Part shown: positions 17,679-33,798 of the stretch, in pieces
How the letters are laid out: every line of letters starts with the position of its first letter
Numbering within the stretch: position 1 is the first letter of the stretch
Assembly: GCF_000337735.1 (NCBI RefSeq)
Contig: NZ_AOHX01000031.1
Coordinates: 10,413-65,406, forward strand
From: Natronorubrum sulfidifaciens JCM 14089
Lineage (GTDB): Archaea > Halobacteriota > Halobacteria > Halobacteriales > Natrialbaceae
Direction: 5' to 3'
DNA: 54,994 bases
Position numbers and translations under genes: made by a program
The notes under the pieces: model-generated
The model's database searches: none
What the model saw: the letters and a program-made list of their open reading frames with translations, nothing else
What the model was told of the DNA's origin: nothing

Positions 17679-18437
17679 TCAGACACCTCCCTCGAGGATG
17701 AACTGGTTGACTTCTTCTGAGTTCATCACGGCTGCCACATCGTCGTCGGCGAGCACGCGCCCTTCGTGGAGGGCGACGATCCGGTCGGAGTAGTCTCGGA
17801 TGAGTTCCATGTCGTGTTCGATGAATATGAGGCCGATTTGCTGTTCGACCGCTGCCTCGGTGATCGTCTCCATGACGGCGTTTTTCTCGCGTGAGCCGAC
17901 GCCGCTGGTCGGCTCGTCGAGGATCATGATCTCCGGCTCGAGTGCGAACGACATCGCCACGTCGAGGACCTTTCGGACGCCATGAGGGAGGTGTTCGGTG
18001 TGGTCGTCTGCGTGGGCCTCGAGGTTGAACAACTCGAGGAGCCGTTCCGTCTCGCTGACGGAGGCGCTGTCTCTATGTGTCGGCGTAAACAGGCGGTTGT
18101 TCTCCTGTTTTCGCGAGAGGACACTCGCTTGCATGTTCTCGAACACCGTCATCTCGTCGTAGATCTGTGGGATTTGAAACGAGCGGACGAGTCCTCGACG
18201 GACCCGCTTGTACTTCTGCAGGCCGGAGATGTCCTCGCCGTCGAAGATGATGGTGCCGTCGGTGAGTGGTAGCGCACCCGAGATGAGGTTCGTGAACGTG
18301 GTTTTGCCGGCCCCGTTGGGGCCGATGATGCCGACGATTTCGTCGTCGTAGAACTCGACGCTCACACCATCGACGGCGACGATGCTTCCGAAGTCTTTGC
18401 GAACGTTTTCGGTTTTGAGGATTGGTTCTGAACTCAT
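17679..18437 (-). CDS. livG: Branched-chain-type ABC transporter ATPase (LivG)
   Basis: A 252-residue ABC ATPase with Walker A IGPNGAGKTTFTNLISG, Walker B MILDEPTSGVG and the long Q-loop to signature segment typical of LivG (SVSETERLLELFNLEAHADD). The signature HLPHGVRKVLDVAMS has GV where LSGG is usual: the sequence reads LPHG, as in many LivG proteins (LPYG). A GAGGTG ribosome site precedes the ATG, which overlaps the livM stop (ATGA). The C-terminal VNQFILEGGV tail is LivG-like. Confidence 0.9.
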   Translation of the reverse strand: MSSEPILKTENVRKDFGSIVAVDGVSVEFYDDEIVGIIGPNGAGKTTFTNLISGALPLTDGTIIFDGEDISGLQKYKRVRRGLVRSFQIPQIYDEMTVFENMQASVLSRKQENNRLFTPTHRDSASVSETERLLELFNLEAHADDHTEHLPHGVRKVLDVAMSFALEPEIMILDEPTSGVGSREKNAVMETITEAAVEQQIGLIFIEHDMELIRDYSDRIVALHEGRVLADDDVAAVMNSEEVNQFILEGGV

Positions 18438-19462
18438 TGTTCACCTCGCCGGTCGTTGAGTCGCTCTACAAGCGTCTTGGCACCGCCCCAGATGCCGTTT
18501 TCGCGCAGCGTCAGGACGACGATGAACAGCACGAGCCCCATCGTAAAGTGCCAGTACTCGGTGTACGACAGTGCCAACTCCTGCAGCAGGATGAACCCGC
18601 CGGCACCGACGACCGGGCCGAAGAAGGTCCCAATGCCGCCGAGTAGCGCCATGAAGACGATCTCGCCCGACATCGTCCAGTCGAGATACTCCGGCGTGAT
18701 GTGGCCGATAAGGACGGCATACAGCGCGCCGCCGAGGCCGACGACCATCGCCGACAGGATCATCGAGTAGACGCGGTATCGAAGGACCGGCACGCCGGTC
18801 ATCTCCGCTCGCGTTTCGTTCTCGCGGATCATCTTCAGCGTGAGCCCGAACGGTGACCGGAGCACGAACCAGAGCAGGACGATGGTCGCGGCCAGAGCCA
18901 CCAACACGACGTGATAATAAAAGCCGAGCAGGTAGATCTGTGCCGGCAGCTCACTGATTGGAATCCCGAAGAAATCGGGTCGCGTGACGCCGATGCCGTC
19001 GGTGCCGCGCGTGAGACCACCGATGTCCCGGACGGCGAGGATGTATAGCAGCTGTGCCAGCGCCAGCGTCAACAGCGCGAAGTAGATTTCGTGGGTCTTG
19101 ACGGTCAACACGCCGATGATCGCACCGACGAGTCCCGACACGACCATCGCAATCACCATCACCGCTACGAGGTCGGTGATGCCGACACGCCCCATCACGA
19201 GCACGACGGTGTACATGCCGGTGCCGAAAAACGCCGCGTGGCCGAACGACAACAGCCCCGTGTAGCCAAGGACGATGTTGAACCCCATCGCGGCGATGGC
19301 GAAACACATGATCCACGTCAGCAGTCGCGTGTGGTAGGCGTTGAGCGTCATCGCCGGGTACAGGGCGAGGACGACGAACACGACGATGCCCGCGAGCAGC
19401 CGCCTGTTCTGTAGCGTCTCCGCCAGCCCGACGTTCCCGAACGTCGGCAAGCGGGTGCTCAT
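18434..19462 (-). CDS. livM: Branched-chain-type ABC transporter permease (LivM)
   Basis: A 342-residue permease with about 9-10 membrane segments. LivM hallmarks are MGFNIVLGYTGLLSFGHAAF near residue 58, GRVGITDLVAVMVIAMVV, and the cytoplasmic ATPase-contact loop SPFGLTLKMIRENETRAEMT. HITPEYLDWTMSGEIVFMAL and GGIGTFFGPVVGAGGFILLQ mark the C-terminal half. It is coupled by 4-base ATGA overlaps to both neighbours. With LivH it forms the membrane channel. Confidence 0.9.
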   Translation of the reverse strand: MSTRLPTFGNVGLAETLQNRRLLAGIVVFVVLALYPAMTLNAYHTRLLTWIMCFAIAAMGFNIVLGYTGLLSFGHAAFFGTGMYTVVLVMGRVGITDLVAVMVIAMVVSGLVGAIIGVLTVKTHEIYFALLTLALAQLLYILAVRDIGGLTRGTDGIGVTRPDFFGIPISELPAQIYLLGFYYHVVLVALAATIVLLWFVLRSPFGLTLKMIRENETRAEMTGVPVLRYRVYSMILSAMVVGLGGALYAVLIGHITPEYLDWTMSGEIVFMALLGGIGTFFGPVVGAGGFILLQELALSYTEYWHFTMGLVLFIVVLTLRENGIWGGAKTLVERLNDRRGEQ

Positions 19463-20385
19463 TCGACCACCCCCTCATCGCCGAACAGGCCTTCGGGTTT
19501 CGCGATGATGACGACTACCATGAGCGCGAAGACGATCGCTAACTCGATCGCCGGAACGTACGCGATCCCGAAACTGCGCACCATCCCGATGATGAGCGAG
19601 GCGACGACGACTCCCTTGAGGCTTCCGAGTCCGCCGATGACGATCACGGCGAACGAGAGCAACACGTACTCGAGTGTCACGGCCGGCGTGGCCACGGCAA
19701 ACGGCACGAACAGGGCCCCACCGAGGGCGGCGATCGCGATCGAGAGGCTGAAGATCAACACGCGCACGCGAGTGACGTTAATTCCGAGCATCTGGACCAT
19801 CTCGTAGTCCTCGGACATCGCCTGCGAGATCTTCCCGATCTTCGTCTTGACGAACATCAGGTAGAGGCCGACGGCACAGCAGACGGCGATCAGGATGACG
19901 AACGACCGATAGACCGAGACCGATGACCCGAGGAGGTCGATCGTTCCCAACTGTCTGGACGGGTTGGTTGCGGCGTCGACGCTGATCGGTGTGGCTCCCC
20001 AGAGGTATTTGATGATGTCATCGAGCATGAGGATGACACCGAACGTTGCTAGCAGCTGATACACCGGCTCGATCTCGTACAGCGGCGCGAACACCGTCTT
20101 ATCGAGCGCCGCTGCCAGTACGAACACTGCCAGCGGAATCACGATGACGAGCACGAGCAGTAGCGCGACCATCGTCGTCGTAATGTCGCCGATGTTGTTC
20201 AGCGTCCAGACGGCGATGTACGCCCCCAACCCGTAGAACGCGGCGTGGGCCATGTTCAGCAGGTTGAGAATGCCGAACACGAGCGTCAACCCGACCGAGG
20301 CAAAAAACAACAGAGCTGCGAAGTAGAGCCCGTTGAACGTATGTCCCAGCACGAACGGCTGTCCCAGGAGTGTTTCTGGTATCAT
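19459..20385 (-). CDS. livH: Branched-chain-type ABC transporter permease (LivH)
   Basis: A 308-residue permease, about 8 membrane segments. GLTLVFGILNLLNMAHAAFY is the LivH signature block, and SEDYEMVQMLGINVTRVRVL the coupling helix. LEYVLLSFAVIVIGGLGSLK is the conserved C-terminal segment. It starts 13 bases after the binding-protein stop and overlaps livM by 4 bases. Confidence 0.9.
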   Translation of the reverse strand: MIPETLLGQPFVLGHTFNGLYFAALLFFASVGLTLVFGILNLLNMAHAAFYGLGAYIAVWTLNNIGDITTTMVALLLVLVIVIPLAVFVLAAALDKTVFAPLYEIEPVYQLLATFGVILMLDDIIKYLWGATPISVDAATNPSRQLGTIDLLGSSVSVYRSFVILIAVCCAVGLYLMFVKTKIGKISQAMSEDYEMVQMLGINVTRVRVLIFSLSIAIAALGGALFVPFAVATPAVTLEYVLLSFAVIVIGGLGSLKGVVVASLIIGMVRSFGIAYVPAIELAIVFALMVVVIIAKPEGLFGDEGVVE

Positions 20386-20398
20386 TGGTAGTCCTCCA

Positions 20399-21724
20399 TT
20401 AGAGCGGCTCGATTTCCTCGACCCACTCCATCGTCGGGACGCCAGTGGGCGGGTTCACTTCCGTCGCGGCGATGAACTCGAAATCGGTCGTCAGCGGGTG
20501 GTCGACGGGGAAGTCGTGATCCTCCGTCGGCCGTCCGAAGACGGCAGGCGCGGCCGCCTGCGGGCCACGCATCGTGTGTTGACCGTGTGGCATCTCGACC
20601 GAGATGTCGTTCATCGCCGCCATGAGCTGGTCGCCAGTCGGCCAGTCGCCGATGATCGAAACGGCGCGTTCGACGCCCTCCTGCAGTGTCTTCAGGCCGG
20701 CCCAGTCGTGATACGCACCCCAGCCCGGATACTCTCCGTACCGGTCGTAGTAGTCGTCGACGAACTGCTGGTGGTCTTCATCCTCGTCGTAGCGGTAGGT
20801 GGGCTGGTAGCCGGCCCGCCCACCAAGCCAGACATTCTCTGGCATATCGCCGCCGAGAGAGCGAAGCAACGGCGCTCCGGTGTCCCCGATGAGTAGCGCT
20901 TCACCGACCTGATCGAACAGCCCACCATCGACGCCCTGCGAGACGAACGTCGCCGTATCTCCACCCCACAGACTCGAGAACAGGAGATCAGGCTCTTGGC
21001 TGGCGATCGCGCTCACGTGGGCGCTGTAGTCGGTCTCCCCAAGGTCGGGGTAGCGAGACTCGACGATGTCGATATCCGGCCTGACGTTCTCGAGCGCCGT
21101 CTCGAACATCTCCTGGTGGTCGTGGCCCCAGGCGTAGTCGGGATCGATCGTCACGACTGTCTCGATGTCGTCCATCTGTTCGACCATCCGGACGGCCCCG
21201 ATCGCGCCCGAAGCGTTCGAGCCGGCCGTACGGACGACGTGGTCCATCTCCGGGTTCTCCTCGAACAGCTGGTACGTTCCGGGCATCGTCACCAGAAACG
21301 GCATCTGCTGGTCGTTTGCGGCCGGTGCGACCCCGAGTACGTGCGCACTCGAGATAATGCTAAAGAGCATGTCGACCTCGCCCTCCTGAGCGATCGCCTG
21401 AACGTCGCTGATGAGCGAGTCCAGACCGGCACCCTCGTCGAGTCGGTCAACGATCTCAATCTCGCGTTCGCCGAGCAGGCCACCCTCAGCGTTGATCTGG
21501 TCGACGAGCATATCGGTCGCGTTCATCGCCTGCTCGCCGTAGAACGCGGCCGGTCCGGATTCGAACAGGATCTGTGCGATCCGGAACGGTTCGTCCGGAA
21601 TGCCCTCGATCGTCTCTTGGCCCAGATCCTCGTCTAAGAGTGCACAGCCGGCTGTCATGCTGACGCCCGACAGTGCTGCTGCCCCTTTCAGATACGTTCG
21701 GCGTGATAGTCGTGACTTTCTCAT
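20399..21724 (-). CDS. Branched-chain-type ABC transporter binding lipoprotein (LivK-like)
   Basis: A 441-residue extracellular binding protein. The N-terminus is a Tat lipoprotein signal: SRRTYLKG with arginines 8-9, a hydrophobic run and lipobox TAGC with Cys27. The mature part follows the Peripla_BP_6 fold: FRIAQILFESGPAAFYGEQA, LLGEREIEIVDRLDEG, VQAIAQEGEVDMLFSII, DYAWGHDHQEMFETALENV and ASQEPDLLFSSLWGGDTATF. The ligand may be a branched-chain amino acid, amide, or aromatic or short-chain acid; sequence alone cannot tell. The neighbouring acyl-CoA genes favour an organic acid. It is preceded by a 255-base gap in which I see no convincing gene, so it may also have its own promoter. Confidence 0.88.
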   Translation of the reverse strand: MRKSRLSRRTYLKGAAALSGVSMTAGCALLDEDLGQETIEGIPDEPFRIAQILFESGPAAFYGEQAMNATDMLVDQINAEGGLLGEREIEIVDRLDEGAGLDSLISDVQAIAQEGEVDMLFSIISSAHVLGVAPAANDQQMPFLVTMPGTYQLFEENPEMDHVVRTAGSNASGAIGAVRMVEQMDDIETVVTIDPDYAWGHDHQEMFETALENVRPDIDIVESRYPDLGETDYSAHVSAIASQEPDLLFSSLWGGDTATFVSQGVDGGLFDQVGEALLIGDTGAPLLRSLGGDMPENVWLGGRAGYQPTYRYDEDEDHQQFVDDYYDRYGEYPGWGAYHDWAGLKTLQEGVERAVSIIGDWPTGDQLMAAMNDISVEMPHGQHTMRGPQAAAPAVFGRPTEDHDFPVDHPLTTDFEFIAATEVNPPTGVPTMEWVEEIEPL

Positions 21725-21979: not shown

Positions 21980-22447
21980 TTAGCTGTCATCATGGGTTCG
22001 TTTTCGCGAGAGGACCGTGCGGTCGAATTCACAGACCAGCGGTTCGTCCGGGTCGTTGACTTTGAACACCTCGACGTGCATGGTGACGATGCCCCGCTCG
22101 CCGTCGCTGGTCTCTCGTTTCTCCGTCACGGTCGACTGGACACGGATCGTGTCGCCGTGAAAGACCGGCTCCGGATGCTCGACGTCGTCATACGAGAGAT
22201 TGGCAACGATGGTGCCGTCAGTCGTCTCGGGAATCGTGAGACCGACCGCGAGCGACATCGTGTAGAGGCCGTTGACCAGCCGGTCGCCGAACGCCGTCTC
22301 GGACGCAAACGCCGCGTCGAGATGCAGCGGCTGCTGGTTCATCGTCATATCGCAGAACCGCTGGTTGTCGCTCTCGCTGATCGTCCGTCGCTTCTCGTGG
22401 GCGATCGTCTCGCCGGTTTCGAACTCCTCGTAGTACAGTCCGGTCAT
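21980..22447 (-). CDS. MaoC-family enoyl-CoA hydratase
   Basis: A 155-residue MaoC-type hotdog protein beginning MTGLYYEEFETGETIAHEKR. The active-site helix TISESDNQRFCDMTMNQQPLH carries the family Asn/Gln-Pro-Leu-His pattern. FGDRLVNGLYTMSLAVGLTI is the usual second block, and EPVFHGDTIRVQSTVTEKRE the third. The type resembles mesaconyl-CoA hydratase-like MaoC proteins. The usual SGD of MaoC helices reads DMTM here, so the catalytic Asp may be shifted. It follows the carboxylase beta subunit by 38 bases and is likely to hydrate the unsaturated product of the upstream enzymes. Confidence 0.85.
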   Translation of the reverse strand: MTGLYYEEFETGETIAHEKRRTISESDNQRFCDMTMNQQPLHLDAAFASETAFGDRLVNGLYTMSLAVGLTIPETTDGTIVANLSYDDVEHPEPVFHGDTIRVQSTVTEKRETSDGERGIVTMHVEVFKVNDPDEPLVCEFDRTVLSRKRTHDDS

Positions 22448-22485: not shown

Positions 22486-24264
22486 TCAGAGGATCGTCCC
22501 GTGTTTCTTGTCCGGCAGGTCTTTCTCGACGGTCTCGTAGAACGCAAAGCGGGCCTCGAGTTCCTCTCGAAGCGAACTCGGCGGGACGATCTCGTCGATG
22601 ACGACCTCACTGGCCATCCGGTGGACGTTGATATCCTCGCGGTACTCCTCGCGCAGTTGCTGTTCTTTTTCGGCGCGTTCGTCCGGATCGTCGATCGCGG
22701 CCAGCTTGTTCGCGTAGACGGCGTTGATCGCCGCCTCGGGGCCCATAATGGCGATCTCGCCGCTCGGGAGGCCGATCACGCTTTCCGGATCGTAGGCCGG
22801 CCCCGACATGGCGTAGATCCCCGCGCCGTAGGCCTTGCGGACGACGACGGACTGTTTGGGCACCGTCGCCGAGGACGTCGCATAGATCATCTTCTTGCCC
22901 TGCTCGAGAATGCCGTCTTTCTCGACCTGTGAGCCGGCCATGAAGCCGGGGGTGTCACACAGGTATAACAGTGGGATGTCGTAGGCGTCGCAGGTCCAGA
23001 TGAACTCCGCGGCCTTCTCGGCGGCGTCGGGGAAGATCGCACCAGCGCGGTGGTTCGGCTGGTTCGCGACGATTCCGATCGGTCGGCCGTCGATGCGGGC
23101 GAACGACGTGATGATCTCCGGGCCGTACTCCGGGCGGAGCTCGAGTGTCGAGCCGGCGTCGACGATGCGCTCGATGACGTCGTTCATGTCGTAGCCACGG
23201 TTCGGTTCCTGTGGGACGACGGAATCGATCCCTTCGGGTGGCCGTGCGGGAGCCGTCCCCTCCGTCTGCGGTGGCTCCTCGTCGGCGTTGTCCGGCAGGT
23301 AGCCGATGAGCTTCGCGACGAGTTCGCGGGCGTGTTCCTCGTCTTCTGCGATCAGGTCCGCGCTACCCGAATGCCGGGCGTGGACGTCCGGACCACCGAG
23401 ATCCTGCAGATCGATTTCTTCGCCGGTGACCATCTCGACCATCCGCGGGGAGGCGATCGCCATCGCCGAAACGTCCCGAACCATGACCGTGAAGTCGGCG
23501 AACACCGGCGTATAGGCGGCCCCGGCGATACAGGGGCCGTAGAGCACGCAGATCTGTGGCACGCGGCCCGACAGCATCGAGTGGTTGTAGTAGTACTTCC
23601 CGATACCCTCGCGGTTCGCGAAAAAGCCCGACTGTTGGTCGATTCGGCCGCCGGAGGAGTCCATCAGATAGAGGACTGGGCGACCGGTCTTCAGCGCGCG
23701 CTGTTGCATCCGGAGGAACTTCTCGACGCCTTTGTCAGCCATCGACCCCGCCTTGACGGTGAAGTCGTTGGCCATGAAATGCAGGTCTCGGCCTTCGAAC
23801 TCGGCTGCGCCGGTGATGAGCCCGTCGGCGGGCAGTCGGTCGTCCGACTCCGGATCGCTGTTCTGACCGCTCGGATGCCACGCGTCGAAGTTGGCGAACT
23901 TGCCGTCTTCGAACGACAGGCCGTCCTCGCCAAACCAGAGGTCGAGTCGGTCGCGAACGAACAGCTTCCCCTGATCGGAGAGGCGCTCGCGGTACTTCTC
24001 GGGGCCGCCCTCGAGGATGTCGTCGATCTCGGCTTGCAGTGTCTCCTCTCGAGCGGTCGGCTCGAGTGGCTCTGCGTTGCCGCCGTCGCCGGCAGCCGCG
24101 TCGGGTGTCGTCGCGCCAGCGCTCACCTCGGGCGAGGCACTCGCGAGGAGGTCCTCGCCCCGTTCGGCGTACAGCTCGACGTCCTCGCCGAAGTGCGAGG
24201 CGAGTGCCTTCGCGATCGCCTGTGCTTCCTGCTCGGTTGCCGTCGTGTTGATTTGCAGTTCCAT
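22486..24264 (-). CDS. Acyl-CoA carboxylase, carboxyltransferase (beta) subunit with N-terminal extension
   Basis: A 592-residue carboxyltransferase of the propionyl/methylcrotonyl-CoA carboxylase beta family. The N-terminal half has LYLMDSSGGRIDQQSGFFAN, VPQICVLYGPCIAGAAYTPV and LGGPDVHARHSGSADLIAED; the C-terminal half has ITSFARIDGRPIGIVANQPN and LLYLCDTPGFMAGSQVEKDG. It transfers carboxybiotin CO2 to an acyl-CoA. Residues 1-40 (TEQEAQAIAKALASHFGEDV) resemble the small epsilon subunit found with some actinobacterial and haloarchaeal carboxylases. About 30 Ala/Gly/Thr-rich residues link it to the body, so it looks like a fusion. Adjacent to the biotin carboxylase (2-base gap). The acyl substrate is not decided by sequence. 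Confidence 0.9.
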   Translation of the reverse strand: MELQINTTATEQEAQAIAKALASHFGEDVELYAERGEDLLASASPEVSAGATTPDAAAGDGGNAEPLEPTAREETLQAEIDDILEGGPEKYRERLSDQGKLFVRDRLDLWFGEDGLSFEDGKFANFDAWHPSGQNSDPESDDRLPADGLITGAAEFEGRDLHFMANDFTVKAGSMADKGVEKFLRMQQRALKTGRPVLYLMDSSGGRIDQQSGFFANREGIGKYYYNHSMLSGRVPQICVLYGPCIAGAAYTPVFADFTVMVRDVSAMAIASPRMVEMVTGEEIDLQDLGGPDVHARHSGSADLIAEDEEHARELVAKLIGYLPDNADEEPPQTEGTAPARPPEGIDSVVPQEPNRGYDMNDVIERIVDAGSTLELRPEYGPEIITSFARIDGRPIGIVANQPNHRAGAIFPDAAEKAAEFIWTCDAYDIPLLYLCDTPGFMAGSQVEKDGILEQGKKMIYATSSATVPKQSVVVRKAYGAGIYAMSGPAYDPESVIGLPSGEIAIMGPEAAINAVYANKLAAIDDPDERAEKEQQLREEYREDINVHRMASEVVIDEIVPPSSLREELEARFAFYETVEKDLPDKKHGTIL

Positions 24265-24266
24265 CG

Positions 24267-26051
24267 TTACTCTAAGACGACCAGTGGGTCGCCCATATCA
24301 ACTGTGTCACCGTCCGTCACAGGAACGTCCGCGACGGTGCCGGCGGCCGGTGCCACCACGTCGTTTTCCATCTTCATCGCCTCGAGGACACAGACGACCT
24401 CGCCCTGTGCGACTTGTTCGCCGGGGGAGACGTTCACGGAGAGCACAGTGCCCTGCATCTCGGCCGTGATCGCGTCGCTCGCCGTGACTTGCCCGCCACC
24501 GGCGCTGCCGGTGCTCGAGGCCGTCGATCCAGTCGTGGAGCCGCCCGCGTCGGCACCACCGTTACTGGCTGCCCGCGAGACGTCCCCAGTGACGGCGACG
24601 TCGAATCGCTGTCCCTCGACCTCGACGACGAGGTCGTTCGTCGAGTCGCTGCCGGCCACATCGTCGTCGTCGACGGCCGTACTCCAGCGTTCAACGGCGG
24701 CTGCGAGGTCATCGTTGCTGACCGTCTCGTCAAGATAATTCGTCGTGTGTGCGCCCGCGCGGAACGTCTCGTCGTCGAGCATCAGCCGGTGAAACGGCAC
24801 TGTCGTCTCGACGCCGACGTCGAAGTGGGACAGTGCTCGTCGGGAGCGCTCGAGACAGCGTGCTCGCGTCGGTGCGCGGACGATCAGTTTCGCGATCATC
24901 GAGTCGTAGTCGCCGGCGATCACGTCGCCTTTCTCGATGGCGTCGTCGATCCGGACGCCGAGGCCGCCCGGTGGGTTGTAGGTCGAAAGCGTGCCCGGCG
25001 TCGGCGCGAACCCGTTCGCGGGGTTCTCGGCGTTGATCCGAAACTCCATCGCGTGGCCGTCGATCTCGATGTCGTCTTGCGTGTACGGGAGTTCTTCACC
25101 GGCCGCGATGCGGAGCTGTTCGCGGACGATGTCGATGCCCGTTACCTCTTCGCTGACGGTGTGCTCGACCTGAATCCGCGTGTTGACTTCCATGAAATAG
25201 AACTCCCCGTCTTCCACGAGAAACTCAACCGTGCCCGCGTTCGTGTAGTCGGCCTCGCGGACGCCCCGACGGGCCGCGTTGCCGATCGCCTCACGAAGCC
25301 CCGAATCGAGGGCCGGGCTCGGCGCTTCCTCGATCACCTTCTGGTGGCGACGCTGGAGCGAGCAGTCTCGCTCACCGAGATGCAACGCCGTGTCGTGTTC
25401 GTCAGCGAGGATCTGCACTTCGACGTGTTTTGGGGCCTCGAGGAACTTCTCGACGTAGACTGAGTCGTTGTCGAAGTAGGCCTCGCCTTCGCGTTTGGCG
25501 CTCTCGAAGGCGTCTTCGACCTCGTCGGCGCTGCGGACGATCTTCATGCCACGGCCGCCACCGCCGCCTTCGGCCTTGATGGCGATCGGGTAGCCGAACT
25601 CGTCGCCCAACTCGCGCACCTCGGCGGCTGACTCGACGGGGTCGGTCGTCCCCGGCACGACCGGGACGTCCGCGTTTTGCATGATCTGCCGGGCGTTGGT
25701 CTTCTCGCCTAAGGCCGTCATGGCGTCGCTCGAGGGACCGACCCAGGTGATCCCCTCGGCTGATTCGACCTGGCTGGCGAACTCGGCGTTTTCCGCGAGG
25801 AAGCCGTAGCCGGGGTGGATCGCGTCGGCTCCGGCGCGGTTGGCGACCTCGATGATCGTCTCGCCGTCGAGATAGGACTCGCTCGCCGGCGCGGGGCCGA
25901 TGTTGTACGCTTCGTCAGCGTAGGCGACGTGGCCGGCGTCTCGGTCGGCGTCGCTGTAGACGGCGACCGTTGCGATACCGAGTTCTTCACAGGCGCTCAT
26001 GACGCGGACGGCGATTTCGCCGCGGTTGGCGACCAGTAGTTTCTCGAACAT
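24267..26051 (-). CDS. Acyl-CoA carboxylase, biotin carboxylase/BCCP (alpha) subunit
   Basis: A 594-residue alpha subunit. The biotin carboxylase N-domain opens [20 protein letters not shown]. The ATP-grasp domain has the glycine loop [34 protein letters not shown] and [20 protein letters not shown]. The C-domain is followed by a Ser/Gly-rich linker and a biotinyl domain with EAMKMEN (Lys560). It carboxylates its own biotin using bicarbonate and ATP. The ATG at MFEKLL is clear: the upstream part of the frame is Arg-rich antisense of the dehydrogenase gene. It starts two bases after the acyl-CoA dehydrogenase stop and ends two bases before the beta subunit. Confidence 0.93.
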
Positions 26052-26053
26052 GA

Positions 26054-27220
26054 TCAGTAGGATTTGGGGAAGCCGAGCTGTTGGCCGATGTGGTTGTATG
26101 CCATCTGCTGGGAGACGGGCGCGAGTCGCGTGAGATTGATCTCGCGCCACCATCGTTCGACGTCGTACTCCGTGGCGTACCCCCAGCCGCCGAAGGCCTG
26201 CATCGAGTGTTTGACCGCCTCGATGCCGGCGTCGACGGCCGTCGCCTTCGCGACGTTGGTCTCGTAGCCACAGTCTTCGCCCTGATCGTAGAGCCAGGCG
26301 GCCTTCTCGCGCATGAGCGCCGCTGTCTCCATTTTCGCGTAGGCTTCCGTGATCGGGAACGAGACGGCCTGATGGGTGCCGATCGGTGCGCCGAAGATCT
26401 CGCGGTCGTTGGCGTACTGGATCGCCGCGTTCGAGGCGAGTTTGCCGATTCCGGTGCCGGCGGCCGCGAAGCCGATTCGCTCGGGGTTGAGCATGTCGAC
26501 CAGGACCCACCAGCCGTCGCCTTCCTCGCCAAGCAGGTTTTCCTCGGGCACGCGGACGTTCTCGAAGAAGACCTCACACGACTTCGAGTAGTTCATCGCG
26601 TGTTTCGAGATCGGCGAGACGTCGATGTTCGGATCGTCCATATCGACGACAAAGAGGCTGATCCCGTCGGTGCCGCGGTCGACGTCCTCTCGAGGGGTCG
26701 TCCGCGTGACGAGGATCATGTTGTCGGCCCGATCCGCGAACGTGATCCACGCCTTCTTGCCGTTGAGCACGTACTCGTCGCCATCTTTTTCGGCTCGAGT
26801 GGCGACGTTGAGCGTGTTCGTCCCCGCCTCGGGCTCGGTGATCCCGATCGAGAAGTTGCGCGCGCCGGTTGCGATGTCGGGCAGGTAGCGTTCTTTCTGT
26901 TCCTCGGTGCCGTTCTCGCGGATGCCCACGGCGGCCATCCCGGCGGTCAACACCAGATACCACGTGCCGGCCATGCCACACCCCTCGGCACAGAGGGTTT
27001 CCATCGCCAGTCCCATCTCCTGCATTCCCATGCCCGCGCCGTCGTACTCCTCGGGGACGAGCAGGCCGTGGAAGCCGGCCTCGCCGAGTTCGTTCCAGAA
27101 TCCCGTGGAGAACTCGCCGTTTTCTTCCTTCTCGCGCCAGTGTTCCGGTCCGTACTGCTCGGCGATCTCCGCCGCTGTCTGGCGGATCATCGACCGTTCG
27201 TGTGTGTCTTCGAAGTTCAT
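26054..27220 (-). CDS. Acyl-CoA dehydrogenase
   Basis: A 388-residue flavoprotein dehydrogenase. Family blocks are [80 protein letters not shown] and [20 protein letters not shown]. The last block has a Glu at the position of the medium-chain enzyme's catalytic base (TEY), unlike isovaleryl-CoA dehydrogenase, whose base lies elsewhere. It would introduce the alpha-beta double bond and pass electrons to ETF; the FadF-like gene at 50890-53088 may take them on to quinone. ATG at [10 protein letters not shown] is preferred; an ATG 11 codons earlier is possible. Second gene of the cluster. Confidence 0.92.
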
Positions 27221-27310
27221 CGGTAGGTTCGTATCGTCTCGCGTCCGGGACATCCCGGATGCTGCTGTCGCGTCGTTCGATCGCTCTACTCGAGGCTGCG
27301 CCGAGGTCGA

Positions 27311-28993
27311 TCAGGCCGCCTCGGCTTCCTCTTCGACCTCGTCTTGGAGCTCCGTCCGGCGGATCTTCCCGGTGACCGTCTTGGGCAGTTCGTCACGGAA
27401 CTCGATCTCGCGGGGGTACTCGTGGGCCGAGAGTTCGTCTCGCACGTGGGCTTTGACCTCCTCTTTGAGGTCGGCGGAGGTCGTCGTCCCCTCGCTGGGC
27501 ACGATGTAGGCTTTCACGATGTTGCCCCGCTCGCGGTGGGGTTTGGGCACGACGGCGGCCTCGGCGACGGCCTCGTGCTCGCCCAGCGAGCTTTCGACCT
27601 CGAAGGGGCCGATCCGGTAGCCCGACGAGAGGATGACGTCGTCGGCCCGGCCTTCGAACCAGAGGTAGCCGTCCTCGTCTTTGTGGGCGAGGTCGCCCGA
27701 GAGATACCACTCGCCGTCGGGACCGTCGACGAAGCACTCGGCGGTCTTTTCGGGTTTCTGCCAGTACTCCGCGAAGAAGCAGGGGTAGTCCCCGCGCTGG
27801 GCGATCTCGCCCGTCTGACCGGGCTCGAGCACTTCACCCGTCTCCGGATCGACGATGTCAGCCTCGACACCGGGCAGCGGCTTGCCCATCGAACCCGGCC
27901 GCACGTCCATCGTCGGGTAGTTGTTGATGATCATGTTGCCCGTCTCGGTCTGCCCGTAGGTGTCGTGGATCGTCACACCGAGGGTTTCCTCGCCCCACTC
28001 GACGACGCCCGCCGAGAGCGGTTCGCCGATCGATAAGGCGTGACGCAGGTCGAGCGAGACGTCCTCGAGGACTTCCTCGTGTTCGCGCAACATTCGGTAG
28101 GCCGTCGGCACCGAGAACAACACCGTGATGGGGAACTCATCGAGGAGGTCGGCCCACGTTCCGGGGTCGAACTCACCTTCGTAGGTGAACAGGGCGGTGC
28201 CCCAGAACCAGGCCCCGAGCGTGTTGATCGGGCCGGTCAGCCAGCCCAGGTCGCCGGTCGACCAGTAGCAGTCGCCCTCCTGCAGGTCGACAGCATACTT
28301 TTGAGTGGCGGCGACGCCGGTGACCCACCGGTGTTTGTGGCGAACGCCTTTCGCCAGCCCGGTCGTCCCGCTGGTGTAGTAGAGCAAGGCGTCGTCCTCG
28401 CCGCCCGTCTGGGCTGGCTCGTACTCACGGCTCGCATCTTCCATCTCGCTATGGTAGCTTGCGTCGCCGCGTCGAATGCCCGTCCCGTCGTCGCTGACGA
28501 CGATGACGTGTTCGACCGAGGGGGCATCCTCGAGGGCTTGTTCGACGGTGTCGCGGTTGTCGGCGGTGGTGACGATCGCTTTCGCGTCACAGTCGGCAAG
28601 CCGGTAGGAGATGCCGTCGGGGCCAAAGCGCTCGTTGATGCCGCCGAAGACGGCCCCGCGTTTGAGCGTCCCCACCAGCGCGACGTAGTGTTCGGGGATT
28701 CGGGGCATGTAGGAGAAGACCCGATCGCCCTGTTCGATGCCGAGGTCCTCGAGGACGTTCGCGAACTGGCTCGTCTGGTTCGCCAGCTCCCAGAACGTCA
28801 GCGTCGTCAGCTCCCCGTCCTCGCTGACCTGATAGAGGGCGACTTTCTCCTTGTTCTCGGCGTGTCGATCACAGACTTCGTGTGCGATGTTCAGTTCACC
28901 CGGTGCGTCCCAGTCGGCTGCGTCGTAGAGGTCGTCCCAACTGAATTCCTCGCGAACCTGCTCGTACTCTGGAAGATTGTGGCTCGATGGCAT
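27311..28993 (-). CDS. AMP-forming acyl-CoA synthetase
   Basis: A 560-residue ligase of the acetyl/medium-chain acyl-CoA synthetase type. The P-loop YYTSGTTGLAKGVRHKHRWV is intact. A5 is IHDTYGQTETGNMI; A7/A8 are YLSGDLAHKDEDGYLWFEGR and DDVILSSGYRIGPFEVESSL; A10 is PKTVTGKIRR with the catalytic lysine. It activates a carboxylic acid to its CoA thioester in the cytosol. First gene of the 12-kb cluster; a TTATTA element about 30 bases before its ATG fits a promoter. The downstream dehydrogenase, carboxylase and hydratase would act on its product. Confidence 0.92.
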   Translation of the reverse strand: MPSSHNLPEYEQVREEFSWDDLYDAADWDAPGELNIAHEVCDRHAENKEKVALYQVSEDGELTTLTFWELANQTSQFANVLEDLGIEQGDRVFSYMPRIPEHYVALVGTLKRGAVFGGINERFGPDGISYRLADCDAKAIVTTADNRDTVEQALEDAPSVEHVIVVSDDGTGIRRGDASYHSEMEDASREYEPAQTGGEDDALLYYTSGTTGLAKGVRHKHRWVTGVAATQKYAVDLQEGDCYWSTGDLGWLTGPINTLGAWFWGTALFTYEGEFDPGTWADLLDEFPITVLFSVPTAYRMLREHEEVLEDVSLDLRHALSIGEPLSAGVVEWGEETLGVTIHDTYGQTETGNMIINNYPTMDVRPGSMGKPLPGVEADIVDPETGEVLEPGQTGEIAQRGDYPCFFAEYWQKPEKTAECFVDGPDGEWYLSGDLAHKDEDGYLWFEGRADDVILSSGYRIGPFEVESSLGEHEAVAEAAVVPKPHRERGNIVKAYIVPSEGTTTSADLKEEVKAHVRDELSAHEYPREIEFRDELPKTVTGKIRRTELQDEVEEEAEAA

Positions 28994-29209: not shown

Positions 29210-30370
29210 TCACTCCCGTCGTCGCTCGAGCGTTCGCAACCGCTCGAGTCGTGTCTCGGTCGCCGGATGGGTCTGCGGTCGCCACGCGAGCAGGCGACGA
29301 ACGCGTGTCGTTACCGGGGCAATGACGTGTTCCCGGAGCCAGCTGCTGACGACGATGACGGCTCGGTCCACGGCGTCCGGCTCCGTGAATTCGGGTGACA
29401 GCTTTGGGGTCCATCGGTCGACCCAGTGGTCGCCCTCGTCGTCCGCACGCGTCTCGAGTGTCAGCGGTTGGGCGACGATCCCGAGCGTTGCACTGGCGTC
29501 GATCCGTACGTCCCGTGTCGGGCGTTCGTCCTCGAGCGTCTCGAGGGCGGCCGCTAACGCAGCCGGCTCGCCGGTGAGTTGGACTGCCCCGCGGTCGGCG
29601 GCGTGTTCGCGAGCCTTCGAGAACAGGCCGAGCGTGATCGCGTTCACGCCGAGTAAGCCCCTCGCGACGGCGCTCCAGACGAGATAGAGCGATCCGAGCA
29701 CCAGAAGCGGAACTGCGAGGACGATGATCCCGATACCGGTGAAAACGGCCAGCCACAGGGTGGCCCAGAGCACCCGTCGGAGTCGGCGCTCGCGCTCGAG
29801 CAGCCGATCGCCGATCGCGACGGTCGCGGCGACGGCGGTGACGACCGGCAGGTCGCGGTTTGCGATGTGGGCGACCTCGTGTGCAAGCGCCGCGTCGAGT
29901 TCGTCGTCATCGAGGGCCTCGAGCAGCCCCGTCGTCACGACGATCGTCGGCGACCGTTGGCTGCCGACGGTCAGACAGCCCGGCTCGGCCCGGTCGGCGA
30001 CGGCAACCGAGGGGTGCGCCACGTCAGCCTGTGTTGCCAGCCGGCGGACTCGCCCGTCGATATTTCGCGGGCCGTCCCCCGCAGTGTCGTCGACCTCGAG
30101 CCCGGAGACAACGGCTCGGGTGCCGTATCTCGCTTGCAGGGCGACGAGGCCGACTGCACCGACGAGGAGCGTGCCAATCGTCAGCGGAAGGCTGCTCTCG
30201 GGTTGTAGTGGGTGGCCGCTTGCGGCCAGCGCGTGGGAGACGCTCCACGCGAGGACGGCAATCAGGAGACCGTTGACGCCGACTACGAGCGCCAGCGCGC
30301 CGACGATTCGTGCCTGAAGCCGTCGATCCGGTGTGAGTGGCACACTGTCGTTTTGGTGCCACGCTCGCAA
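29210..30370 (-). CDS. M48-family membrane metalloprotease, HtpX-like
   Basis: A 386-residue zinc protease. Two N-terminal membrane segments (about 22-45 and 62-80) precede the catalytic helix ALAHEVAHIANRD (His164, Glu165, His168). Two more membrane segments follow (VLWATLWLAVFTGIGIIVLA and the next about 20 residues). KAREHAADRGAVQLTGEPAA supplies the third zinc ligand. HtpX proteases degrade damaged membrane proteins. The C-terminal WRPQTHPATETRLERLRTLE matches the conserved H-P-x-x-x-R-I/L tail of the family. It follows the UbiD-like genes by 45 bases with a short inverted repeat between, so co-transcription is uncertain. Confidence 0.9.
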   Translation of the reverse strand: MRAWHQNDSVPLTPDRRLQARIVGALALVVGVNGLLIAVLAWSVSHALAASGHPLQPESSLPLTIGTLLVGAVGLVALQARYGTRAVVSGLEVDDTAGDGPRNIDGRVRRLATQADVAHPSVAVADRAEPGCLTVGSQRSPTIVVTTGLLEALDDDELDAALAHEVAHIANRDLPVVTAVAATVAIGDRLLERERRLRRVLWATLWLAVFTGIGIIVLAVPLLVLGSLYLVWSAVARGLLGVNAITLGLFSKAREHAADRGAVQLTGEPAALAAALETLEDERPTRDVRIDASATLGIVAQPLTLETRADDEGDHWVDRWTPKLSPEFTEPDAVDRAVIVVSSWLREHVIAPVTTRVRRLLAWRPQTHPATETRLERLRTLERRRE

Positions 30371-30415: not shown

Positions 30416-31807
30416 TCACAACAGCTCATCCAACTCGCTGTCGAACCCGAACTCGGCCCACGAGCCGCGGATGGCGGCCCGAAGCGTGGGCGGGTACGAC
30501 TCGGCGAGTGAGACCCGCGGCGCGATGTACGCTTCGTCCCAGCGCGGGTCCCACGTCGCGTCGATGTAGAGGCGAGCGCCGGTTCCCTCCCGGCTGTACG
30601 TCGGGAGGCGGGCAACCGGCGCGTCCGAGCCGCTGAACAGCCAGTCTCGAGCGGGATGGGCTTTGACCCAAATGTCGCCGAGGACCTGCCCGAGGTCGCG
30701 CGGGCTGGCGTGTTCGTCGACGAGCACGACCGTATCGAAACAGTCGGCAAAGGAAAACAGGAAGTTCGACAGCTGCCACTCGAAGCCGGCGTACAGGACC
30801 TCTGTCGAGACGACACAGATCCCGAGACGACCCGCCGCCGGCAACAACAGCCACTCGACGGGCGAGACACCCCAGTAGCTGTTGACCCGATCGTAGAGTC
30901 GTGCTGCAAGCGCGAGGCTGACGAGTTGCAGATCGTCGGTCAGTGGCACGCCAAGCGGCGTAAACGGAACGACGGCATCATCACGGGTGAACACGCTCGA
31001 GACCTCGAGTGTCAGCGTCGTTCCCTCGAGGAGGTGCTCCCAGAACGCCCGCTTTTCCGACCGCGTGTCGGGCTGTTTGTCGGCAATTTCGGCCTCGAGG
31101 ACGACCTCGGACGAACTCGGGACGACGCCGCCAGTGGTCGGGATCACTGGCACCGTCGAGCCGACGCGGCGGTCCTCGATCGGTGTCGAGAGCCGGTCGG
31201 TAATCGTCAAAAACTGCGTCGCCGCGAGCGCCTCGGCTGGGACGCCGAGTGCGATTGACACCGTCGCCCCGCGTTCGAATCGGTCGGTGATCGTCTCGGG
31301 GATACGCGCTCGAATCGTATTGCTGTCGATGACCGTCCCGTGAAGCGGCGTCCAGTACGTGCCCTCGTCGGTCCCGACTGAGAGGACCCCGAGCGTCACG
31401 TGGGGCCAGGTCTCGCCCGGCGGCGTCGGAAAGCCGAGGTCTCGAACGGTTCGATCCGTGGTGGTCGCCGCCCGTTCGACGTAGGTGACGTCTCGCTCGT
31501 CGACCCGCTTGCCGAGTGTCGCGATCTTCTCGAGGACGTCGACGTACGCGGGATCTCGGTCGACGCCGAGGCCGATCCCGAGCCGTGTCCACGGGTATCG
31601 CGTCTGACGGCGCAGTTGGTCGACGCCGCCGTAGACGCCGCTGACGAGGTCGATGCGGCCGTCAGCCGTCCCCAATCGCACTGCGGGGCCGTCGGCCCGA
31701 AGCGCCTCGCTGGCGATGACCTGTGGCGACGGCGAGTCGGGTCGCTCGAGCGAACAGCAGTCGCCGGTTTTCCGCAGGAACTCGAGGTGGGTTCGAAACG
31801 CCGTCAT
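30416..31807 (-). CDS. Divergent UbiD-like protein lacking the catalytic acid motif
   Basis: A 463-residue homologue of the UbiD decarboxylase fold. The blocks VLSVGTDEGTYWTPLHGTVI and GATVSIALGVPAEALAATQF correspond to the prenyl-FMN domain of UbiD, and SSSEVVLEAEI to its middle strand. LGICVVSTEVLYAGFEWQLS and FDTVVLVDEHASPRDLGQVL resemble the C-terminal assembly domain. Where catalytic UbiD proteins have EGPFGDY, this one reads SEKRAFWEHLLEG, so it is probably inactive alone. Its ATG overlaps the stop of the intact UbiD gene (ATGA), which suggests a fixed-ratio heteromer. The start at MTAFRTHLEF replaces a longer frame whose upstream part is antisense-like. Confidence 0.7.
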   Translation of the reverse strand: MTAFRTHLEFLRKTGDCCSLERPDSPSPQVIASEALRADGPAVRLGTADGRIDLVSGVYGGVDQLRRQTRYPWTRLGIGLGVDRDPAYVDVLEKIATLGKRVDERDVTYVERAATTTDRTVRDLGFPTPPGETWPHVTLGVLSVGTDEGTYWTPLHGTVIDSNTIRARIPETITDRFERGATVSIALGVPAEALAATQFLTITDRLSTPIEDRRVGSTVPVIPTTGGVVPSSSEVVLEAEIADKQPDTRSEKRAFWEHLLEGTTLTLEVSSVFTRDDAVVPFTPLGVPLTDDLQLVSLALAARLYDRVNSYWGVSPVEWLLLPAAGRLGICVVSTEVLYAGFEWQLSNFLFSFADCFDTVVLVDEHASPRDLGQVLGDIWVKAHPARDWLFSGSDAPVARLPTYSREGTGARLYIDATWDPRWDEAYIAPRVSLAESYPPTLRAAIRGSWAEFGFDSELDELL

Positions 31808-33312
31808 TGGCTCGAGTCGATCGTGTGTGATGGTTCGAATGCCGATTCGGGAACCCCGGCTTGGCTGAGCAGGTTCCGGGCCTGCTCGCGGGCGTCCCGA
31901 TCGCCGATCGATTGGGCTGGTCGTGTGCCGTCGGCACAGGCGTCGATGTACGCTTTCGCCGTCTTCGTCTTCGAGGTACCGACGGCTGCACTGCCCTTCT
32001 CGTCGGGCGTCTGGTAGATGTTCAGTGGCACTTTCGGCATGCGCTCGACGCCGAACTGGTGGAAGTCCGTGTCGGGATCGGCGTGGAGAGCGATCGCTTC
32101 GACGACCGCACGTGGATTCAGCGGGTTGACGTCGCTGTCGACGAAGACGAAAAAGTCGATGTGGAGCATTCCCCAGGTGGTGAAAATGAAGTTGGCGAGT
32201 TCGTGTAACGCGCCGGGGTAGGGCTTCTCGGTCGCGATGATCCACACTGTTCGCGAGGTAAAGGGCCACGGAACGGCCATCTCGACGTCGAAGCCGGCTG
32301 CTCGTAATCCCAGCGTGGCGTCCGGCCCGCCCGCCGCGGCCGCGAACGTGCTCGTCGAGTTCTCCCCGTAGCCGACGCCGCTTCCTTCGACACAGAACGG
32401 GACGTAGGGCTGCTTGCGGTGGGTAATCGCATCGACCTCGAGTACGGGCATCGAGCGCCGGGGGCCGTTCATGTAGCCGAAGTAGTCGCCGAAGGGTCCC
32501 TCATCGAGGCGTTCGTCCGGCATCACGCGGCCCTCGATGACGATCTCGGCCGACGCGGGCACGGCGAGGTCGTTCGTCTCACACTCGACAAGCTCGACTG
32601 GCGACTCCCGCAGCCCCCCCGCAAAGGAGACCTCGCTTCGCCCGACGGGAATCCACACCTCGGCGGTGGCCTCAATGGCTGGCCCGGCACCGATCGTCAG
32701 GGCGACGGGCATCGGCTCGTCGTTGCGTTCGTACTCGAAGTAGTAACGGTTTGGCACCTGCTCGCCCGCCAAAAAGAGCAGACTCGCCTGTGAGTCGTCG
32801 TGGATCATCGCCCGGTGGCGCGACCAGCTGCCCCACTCGCTGTCGGGGTCGGGAGCAACGAGCGTCGAAAGCGTCGCATACCGGCCGCCGTCGCCCTGAT
32901 GGATGTACGGCCACGGAAACTCGAGCAGGCTCGCCGCTGTACCCGTTCGAACGACCTCCTTGCAGGGGGCCTCGTCGTTGGGGATGACCGCCGGCTCGAT
33001 GGGGTCGTGTAGCCGTTCGATCATCCCTTCGTAGTAGGCTGGCCCGGGATCGACTGGCAGGTCGAACGCGCGTGCAAACCACTCCCACGGCCGACGCTGG
33101 GGGCCACGGTAGGGATCTCCCACGAGTCGAGCGGCCGTCTCTCCACACTGCGATTGGACCGACTCGAAGACCGGAATCCGATCGTCCGTCTCGTTTGCCA
33201 GCATCGTGATGGCGCTCGCCTCGAGATCCCACGAGACGTCGTCGGTAATCGTCGTCAGTGCGTCCGCGTCCGCGAGACAGTCGAGAAACTCCCGAAATGA
33301 TGTGACAGCCAT
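31804..33312 (-). CDS. UbiD-family decarboxylase (prenylated-FMN type)
   Basis: A 502-residue UbiD homologue. The N-terminal domain has SFREFLDCLADADALTTITD. The prenyl-FMN domain has WGSWSRHRAMIHDDSQASLL (substrate/cofactor arginine region) and PMPVALTIGAGPAIEATAEV. Middle strand AEIVIEGRVMPDER and the acidic motif DEGPFGDYFGYMNGPRRSMP (Glu260, Glu271) supply the active-site carboxylates of the family. The C-terminal TWGMLHIDFFVFVDSDVNPL block is the assembly domain. UbiD enzymes reversibly decarboxylate aromatic or unsaturated acids using prenylated FMN made by UbiX; no ubiX is in the window. It lies between a 160-residue unknown protein (3-base gap) and a divergent UbiD-like protein (ATGA overlap). 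Confidence 0.9.
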   Translation of the reverse strand: MAVTSFREFLDCLADADALTTITDDVSWDLEASAITMLANETDDRIPVFESVQSQCGETAARLVGDPYRGPQRRPWEWFARAFDLPVDPGPAYYEGMIERLHDPIEPAVIPNDEAPCKEVVRTGTAASLLEFPWPYIHQGDGGRYATLSTLVAPDPDSEWGSWSRHRAMIHDDSQASLLFLAGEQVPNRYYFEYERNDEPMPVALTIGAGPAIEATAEVWIPVGRSEVSFAGGLRESPVELVECETNDLAVPASAEIVIEGRVMPDERLDEGPFGDYFGYMNGPRRSMPVLEVDAITHRKQPYVPFCVEGSGVGYGENSTSTFAAAAGGPDATLGLRAAGFDVEMAVPWPFTSRTVWIIATEKPYPGALHELANFIFTTWGMLHIDFFVFVDSDVNPLNPRAVVEAIALHADPDTDFHQFGVERMPKVPLNIYQTPDEKGSAAVGTSKTKTAKAYIDACADGTRPAQSIGDRDAREQARNLLSQAGVPESAFEPSHTIDSSQ

Positions 33313-33315
33313 CCG

Positions 33316-33798
33316 TTATTCGGTTTCGAGTACCTCTTGAAGCGGGTCTGTCTCGAACTCGGCTTTACAGTCGGCGTAGGTCTCGAGCAGCGACGGGTGT
33401 TCCTCGGCGAGACCGGCAAACAGGAGCGCTCGAGCCGCGTCTGCCATCGAGTCGTACTCCCCGACGTCGGCGAGATAGCCCAACAGGACGTTCAGATCGC
33501 TCGAGCGCGTGTTGACGATGTTCGAGCGCTCCTGTTGGTCCTCGAGGAGTCGCTCGAGTCGGTCTTCGACGTCCTCCGTTTCGTCGACGAACTCGATATA
33601 CCACTGTTCTTTCGTGGTTTCGTGTGGGCCTTTGACGACCGACAGCGGTTCCGGCTGCTCGAGCTGTCCGGGATCTTTCGCAACGCGCGCTCGAGAGTGA
33701 AAGATCTCTTTCGTCTCGGCGTCGCGAACCTGCAACACCGTCTCCGTGCCCGGGGCGTTCGGCAGGTGTTTCTCGGCAGTGATGTATGTGTTTGACAT
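33316..33798 (-). CDS. 160-residue acidic protein of unknown function, first gene of the UbiD trio
   Basis: I do not recognise the family. The N-terminal half is beta-like (MSNTYITAEKHLPNAPGTET, VLQVRDAETKEIFHSRARVA, EQWYIEFVDETEDVED). The C-terminal half is helical (RLERLLEDQQERSNIVNTRS, LNVLLGYLADVGEYDSMADA, ARALLFAGLAEEHPSLLETY). No Cys-rich, membrane or catalytic motif is visible. The start at MSNTYITAEK is chosen because the frame above is unlike a protein and a TATA-like element (33878-33886, minus) lies about 85 bases upstream. It is three bases before the UbiD gene and probably encodes a third subunit or chaperone of that enzyme. Confidence 0.7.
   Translation of the reverse strand: MSNTYITAEKHLPNAPGTETVLQVRDAETKEIFHSRARVAKDPGQLEQPEPLSVVKGPHETTKEQWYIEFVDETEDVEDRLERLLEDQQERSNIVNTRSSDLNVLLGYLADVGEYDSMADAARALLFAGLAEEHPSLLETYADCKAEFETDPLQEVLETE

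Follow-up and report, generated by a model that had tools for sequence, protein, structure and literature searches.

The window analysed here is a stretch of 54,994 nucleotides (nt) of Natronorubrum sulfidifaciens JCM 14089, in whose numbering all positions below are given, and the subject of this work is a unit of three genes, two of them related to the UbiD decarboxylase family, that stand in tandem on its minus strand in the order P0003, P0001, P0002:

33316..33798, minus strand: P0003, 160 amino acids (aa), first gene of the unit; N-terminal domain and predicted C-terminal ribbon-helix-helix (RHH) domain
31804..33312, minus strand: P0001, 502 aa, putative catalytic UbiD-family subunit; R167, E271 and D276 invariant in 66 of 66 sequences
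30416..31807, minus strand: P0002, 463 aa, UbiD-fold paralogue without the acid pair; its most conserved part is the C-terminal domain

The tight packing described in a first-pass annotation of this DNA is correct to the base, with 3 bases between P0003 and P0001 and the start of P0002 overlapping the stop of P0001 in an ATGA at 31807-31804. The same goes for the acid motif that it assigned to the 502-residue protein and denied to the 463-residue one: P0001 reads DEGPFGDY at residues 270-277, and P0002 reads SEKRAFWEHLLEG at the aligned position.

The unit was followed in 119 related genomes, in 65 loci obtained from a scan of named genomes and, class-wide, in 391 Halobacteria genomes; residue conservation was counted over 66 sequences, a column being called near-invariant at 95% identity or more. 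Strong matches to P0001, P0002 and P0003 are present in exactly the same 34 of the 119 relatives, and the gene order is identical in all 65 named loci, every one of them haloarchaeal, which is the conserved co-occurrence that the first-pass annotation had proposed to look for and an arrangement far beyond chance. P0001 and P0002 share a 4-base overlap in 56 of these loci, and P0003 and P0001 do so in 30. Class-wide, the P0002 paralogue is found in 88 genomes; the distribution is patchy even within the genus of the window (5 of 10 genomes), and some copies are plasmid-borne. Identity to the window copy ranges from 56 to 90% for P0001 and from 39 to 87% for P0002; in a plasmid collection, identity falls from 54% to 30% where the group ends, PpcA of phenylphosphate carboxylase being the next relative. 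The corresponding phenyl_P models give P0001 147.9 bits for a cut-off of 564.6 and P0002 25.6 for 468.95, P0003 having no NCBIfam match. Judged by these comparisons, the unit is real and conserved and belongs to the UbiD family but not to that of phenylphosphate carboxylase. Among the papers searched, we found none describing it.

P0001 is a UbiD by Pfam (PF01977, E 9.5e-64, 214.8 bits for a cut-off of 23.3), scores slightly below the cut-off of NCBIfam TIGR00148 (222.6 against 244.85 bits) and has a long match to HudA and Fdc1, its closest solved relatives. Its R167, E271 and D276, with no exception in the 66 sequences, are in register with R173, E277 and E282 of Fdc1, the spacing from R173 to E282 being equal, and this alignment places them on the conserved E-R-E/D ionic network of UbiD. 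Of the metal-ligand positions (N168, H191 and E233 in Fdc1 numbering), the first is variable, the second is always Gln and the third always Glu. P0001 also has invariant motifs of its own (LAGEQxPN, GPRRSMP and DFHQFGVExMPKVPLNIYQTP) that are not seen in the aligned solved UbiDs.

Profile and model comparisons agree that P0002 is a full-length, genuine UbiD-fold paralogue. It passes UbiD_C (PF20696, E 2.6e-11) while staying below the PF01977 cut-off (14.9 against 23.3 bits) and matches the profile of P0001 at 99.4%. Its alignment with solved UbiDs runs from one end of the protein to the other (residues 3-460 in the case of HudA, profile E 1.7e-19), and its model superposes on HudA with a VIA Z of 31.1 and a root-mean-square deviation (rmsd) of 3.3 over 324 residues. 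The E-R-E/D network, on the other hand, is not kept: the Arg place holds H, R or Y (mostly H or R), neither acid place is conserved among the 66 sequences, and an invariant W256-E257 lies downstream of them. The paralogue has, thus, lost its catalytic acids, as first suspected; they were not found at the aligned positions. Conservation is concentrated instead in the C-terminal part, with 54 near-invariant columns out of 173 against 20 out of 290 before it. This part has a low predicted local distance difference test (pLDDT) score in the monomer model, and low confidence combined with high conservation fits an interface. The matching domain is an oligomerization domain in AnInD (PMC8988006) and a dimerization domain in HudA (PMC7976604). 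From the conservation, the known role of the domain and the low model confidence, we infer, as the best reading, a hetero-oligomer of catalytic P0001 and non-catalytic P0002.

UbiD is described as a family dependent on prenylated flavin mononucleotide (prenyl-FMN), for which UbiX/Pad1 makes the cofactor (PMC10865409, PMC12016498), UbiX being a flavin prenyltransferase associated with UbiD enzymes (PMC10865409). In the genome of the window, there is a single UbiD of PF01977 type and no UbiX, the only Flavoprotein-domain gene being CoaBC. The UbiX-type prenyltransferase by which a UbiD/UbiX system is recognised is equally absent from 87 of the 88 Halobacteria genomes with the unit, where PF02441 finds CoaBC-type matches only. 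As this model detects real UbiX at E values of 1e-34 to 1e-43, that is, at 1e-34 or better, it can hardly have missed the gene systematically in 87 genomes. Stand-alone UbiX is found in none of the 34 unit genomes among the first 119 and in 15 of the 15 that have only divergent, conventional UbiDs; class-wide, it occurs in 31 of the 391 genomes, all of which carry UbiD genes. In the sole unit genome with UbiX (G410), some 0.6 kb separate this gene from the place where PF01977 matches a conventional UbiD, on a contig other than that of the unit. Genome incompleteness was considered as the cause and rejected: completeness is about 99%, with few contigs, for many of the unit genomes, and this search recovered a CoaBC-type match from every unit genome; several of those without UbiX have few, chromosome-sized contigs. 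Two family-level relatives (L069 and L070), in which a conventional UbiD adjoins UbiX, an aldehyde dehydrogenase, an AMP ligase and Paa-type genes, are the UbiX-bearing counterpart in haloarchaea.

Prenyl-FMN dependence, which was the key inference of the first-pass annotation, is therefore doubtful: without UbiX, prenyl-FMN would have to come from elsewhere, or the pocket would use something else. One has to be careful, however, not to read a changed cofactor from the changed metal ligands, a proof that we rejected, as HudA has a Ser at the N168 place and the His of the H191 place is also missing from PpcA/PpcB and from a UbiX-bearing archaeon (G618, see below). Since relatives associated with UbiX share part of these changes, they are, by alignment, not decisive for the cofactor. 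For the roles of UbiD in anhydromevalonate-phosphate or menaquinone metabolism, considered through a literature search only, nothing supporting was found.

P0003 had been said to match nothing, which is true of the Pfam and NCBIfam models and less so of its C-terminal half, which is RHH-like by fold and by profile. Its model (mean pLDDT 81.7) is beta-rich in the first half and helical in the second, giving an N-terminal domain (residues 1-75 or so) with a GPHE at 57-60 that is invariant in 66 of 66 sequences, and a predicted RHH domain (about 92-133) with N96-T-R98, whose R98 is equally present in all 66. The C-terminal half has a strand-helix-helix sequence pattern and matches SegB (Foldseek probability 0.99, E 0.12; VIA Z 6.8, rmsd 3.0, 73 of 74 residues). 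Run against 100 genomes, its profile returned the copies of the unit, one decayed copy and three weak matches, all RHH_1 proteins, and the full-length protein was seen only in genomes with the unit. The C-terminal half is, thus, probably a DNA-binding domain, as predicted from fold and pattern, and DNA binding would be at least one of the jobs of P0003; a simple third subunit is less likely. Regarding the N-terminal half, there was no sequence match in the PDB, the fold search with the whole model gave no clear assignment for it, and protein-kinase matches (Z about 2-3) were taken as noise; it may serve in ligand sensing or contact the enzyme. We also considered P0003 as a phosphatase subunit of the phenylphosphate carboxylase type, which has neither a family match nor the predicted fold on its side, and as an LpdD/VdcD-like protein, for which no such match was listed. 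One genome (G029; L050 10046-10453, L051 9475-9972) has two UbiD pairs, one of them adjoined by a garbled P0003 remnant and the other without P0003, and its single intact P0003 lies far from both; P0003 may, thus, act in trans.

A possible origin of the unit is suggested by G618, a genome of the same phylum outside Halobacteria, which has UbiX and a tandem of a P0001-like (37% identity) and a P0002-like (about 27% identity) gene, each with the signature motifs (L146 7121-10667). Its P0001-like protein has Gln at the H191 place, as P0001 does, and its P0002-like protein is in an intermediate state, with the Arg and the first acid kept and the second acid absent. As this pair occurs in a genome with UbiX, the haloarchaeal unit seems to descend from an ancestral pair that lived with UbiX. 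The pair is followed by a 112-aa open reading frame (ORF) that resembles the N-terminal domain of P0003 (blastp E 2e-4 in one comparison, equalled by 5 of 1859 scored shuffles; hhalign 17.8%), a resemblance that is no more than suggestive of homology.

Among known systems, phenylphosphate carboxylase (PpcA/PpcB with PpcD/PpcG; Azoarcus/Thauera) is the nearest paired one by architecture, likewise with two adjacent UbiD-like subunits and small proteins, and P0001 is about 30% identical to PpcA. The parallel drawn in the first-pass annotation is, however, only a distant one: both PpcA and PpcB keep R, E and E whereas P0002 does not keep the network, and the cluster comprises annotated delta and gamma subunits, phosphoenolpyruvate-utilising genes and UbiX, none of which were found in the unit of the window. 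HudA/PA0254 and Fdc1, the best solved relatives of both P0001 and P0002, share the fold and have the catalytic R-E-D/E of P0001, but each is encoded by a single UbiD gene without a silent paralogue and depends on UbiX/Pad1. Naphthalene carboxylase clusters also have several UbiD-like genes, whose products are proposed to form one complex and to use prenyl-FMN (PMC12016498), but these are anaerobic bacterial carboxylases, unlike the unit. A small protein encoded with a UbiD decarboxylase, as P0003 is, is known from LpdD and VdcD (PMC10865409); LpdD, however, is Pba3/4-like and binds prenyl-FMNH2 (PMC10865409), whereas half of P0003 is RHH-like. The C-terminal half of P0003 resembles SegB and ParD-type RHH proteins in predicted fold and in its strand-helix-helix pattern, but P0003 has an additional conserved N-terminal domain and was seen only in genomes with the UbiD pair.

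The acyl-CoA genes reported beside the unit were confirmed at the window locus, where the following conserved downstream neighbours are found, the first of them being conserved there in type A units (CoA, coenzyme A):

27311..28993, minus strand: AMP-dependent acyl-CoA synthetase
26054..27253, minus strand: acyl-CoA dehydrogenase
24267..26051, minus strand: biotin carboxylase/biotin carboxyl carrier protein subunit of acyl-CoA carboxylase
22486..24264, minus strand: carboxyltransferase subunit of acyl-CoA carboxylase
21980..22447, minus strand: MaoC-type hydratase, 155 aa

CoA-ester genes flank all 65 loci. In 35 of them, as in the window, they comprise an acyl-CoA ligase (32 of the 35), acyl-CoA dehydrogenase, biotin carboxylase, carboxyltransferase (not detected in the analysed part of L099) and often MaoC hydratase; in the other 30, they include a metallo-beta-lactamase (MBL) hydrolase and/or PaaABCD-type genes, in most cases together with enoyl-CoA hydratase and acyl-CoA dehydrogenase and frequently with thiolase and aldehyde dehydrogenase. 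Both contexts are those of CoA-ester catabolism, which makes an aromatic or unsaturated acid a plausible substrate. A gene for an M48-family peptidase (29210-30370, minus strand) separates the UbiD unit from the acyl-CoA ligase gene; among the compared loci, L035, of the same genus, is the only other one with the peptidase gene at this place, which, thus, looks like a recent insertion. The acyl-CoA genes are followed by a branched-chain amino acid-type ATP-binding cassette transporter (17679-21724, minus strand; binding protein, two permeases and ATPase), and a similar one flanks the second UbiD pair of G029 (L050), which hints at substrate uptake. On plasmids of two genera, trpD (anthranilate phosphoribosyltransferase) lies no more than about 12 kb away from the UbiD unit (L137 1-680, L141 1024-2016), by chance or possibly as part of an aromatic pathway. 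Finally, an RHH gene followed by a PIN-domain-like ORF at L143 430-863 (G080:C12) forms an apparent VapBC-type toxin-antitoxin pair.

Gene order, conservation, predicted folds, the loss or retention of residues and the absence of UbiX are established, and the reading that we favour, with slightly better than even confidence, is that of a two-subunit UbiD-type (de)carboxylase that has its own DNA-binding partner and is independent of UbiX. P0003, made first, would join a UbiD-linked N-terminal domain, acting as sensor or accessory, to an RHH domain and would probably regulate the operon; P0001 would be catalytic, with Arg167-Glu271-Asp276 sitting where the UbiD network lies next to the flavin; P0002, catalytically silent, would pair with it mainly via the C-terminal domain and shape the oligomer, the pocket or the regulation. 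The substrate of the enzyme would be an aromatic or alpha,beta-unsaturated acid that enters CoA-ester catabolism, and the enzyme would not need UbiX, its cofactor being either prenyl-FMN of unrecognised source or a different flavin-like cofactor. Complex formation, DNA binding, the reaction and the cofactor are what we infer here. Several observations weigh against this reading: the retention of the whole acid-base network argues for a persisting prenyl-FMN-like chemistry; the Z of the SegB match is too low to count by itself, and RHH_1 of Pfam gives no direct match to P0003; conserved columns are more frequent in the N-terminal domain of P0003 (19 of 75) than in its RHH part (8 of 85), which fits an enzyme subunit too, as does the tight coupling of P0003 to P0001; and a palindromic Gibbs sampler run upstream of P0003 gave scattered and unconvincing operator candidates (information of 7.3-7.8 bits against 6.4-7.1 in shuffles). 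As for the hetero-oligomeric prenyl-FMN enzyme with a small third subunit first proposed for this locus, a hetero-oligomer would be the likeliest arrangement, the prenyl-FMN is doubtful and the plain third subunit less likely.

A tentative alternative, clearly behind the favoured one, is an ordinary hetero-oligomeric prenyl-FMN UbiD whose cofactor would be made by an enzyme not recognised as UbiX or by a side reaction of CoaBC, with P0003 as third subunit or LpdD-like cofactor chaperone. It would account for the invariant R-E-D network of P0001 and for the H191-to-Gln change common to the P0001-like protein of UbiX-bearing G618, whose 112-aa ORF weakly resembles the N-terminal domain of P0003; yet that ORF is not a proven homologue, P0003 has a predicted RHH domain, and PF02441, which finds UbiX readily where it is present, recovers only CoaBC-type genes in nearly all unit genomes. 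We consider it unlikely that the pair is no decarboxylase at all and catalyses another reaction on the UbiD scaffold (e.g., a flavin-free CoA-ester or acid-base one), the loss of UbiX having followed: the absence of UbiX, the family-specific invariant motifs, the CoA-ester operons and the N168 place that is no longer conserved would agree with this, but the three residues on which UbiD decarboxylases rely for catalysis are invariant, and HudA, which also lacks the Asn, still uses prenyl-FMN (PMC7976604). It is very improbable that P0001 works alone, with P0002 as a duplicate in decay and P0003 as an unrelated regulator, since decay would fit the two lost acids and the greater divergence of P0002 but would not produce its retention in 65 of 65 loci, its 54 near-invariant C-terminal columns and the 4-base overlap in 56 of them.

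Returning to the UbiX-independent, two-subunit enzyme that we favour, what is new is a UbiD variant with a defined catalytically dead twin in archaeal CoA-ester and Paa-type operons, and the novelty would be larger if the cofactor proves not to be prenyl-FMN. The chances are about even that one fifth or so of Halobacteria have a UbiD-type enzyme at work that dispenses with prenyl-FMN made by UbiX, with an otherwise canonical E-R-D site, in a hetero-oligomer with a dead twin and with a regulator possibly sensing the enzyme itself or its ligand, which would imply a new prenyl-FMN route or a different cofactor. The absence of UbiX suggests that the cofactor, the enzyme that makes it or the reaction carried out on the UbiD scaffold is new, and so large and conserved a group of UbiDs without UbiX offers a natural test of the rule that ties UbiD to prenyl-FMN.

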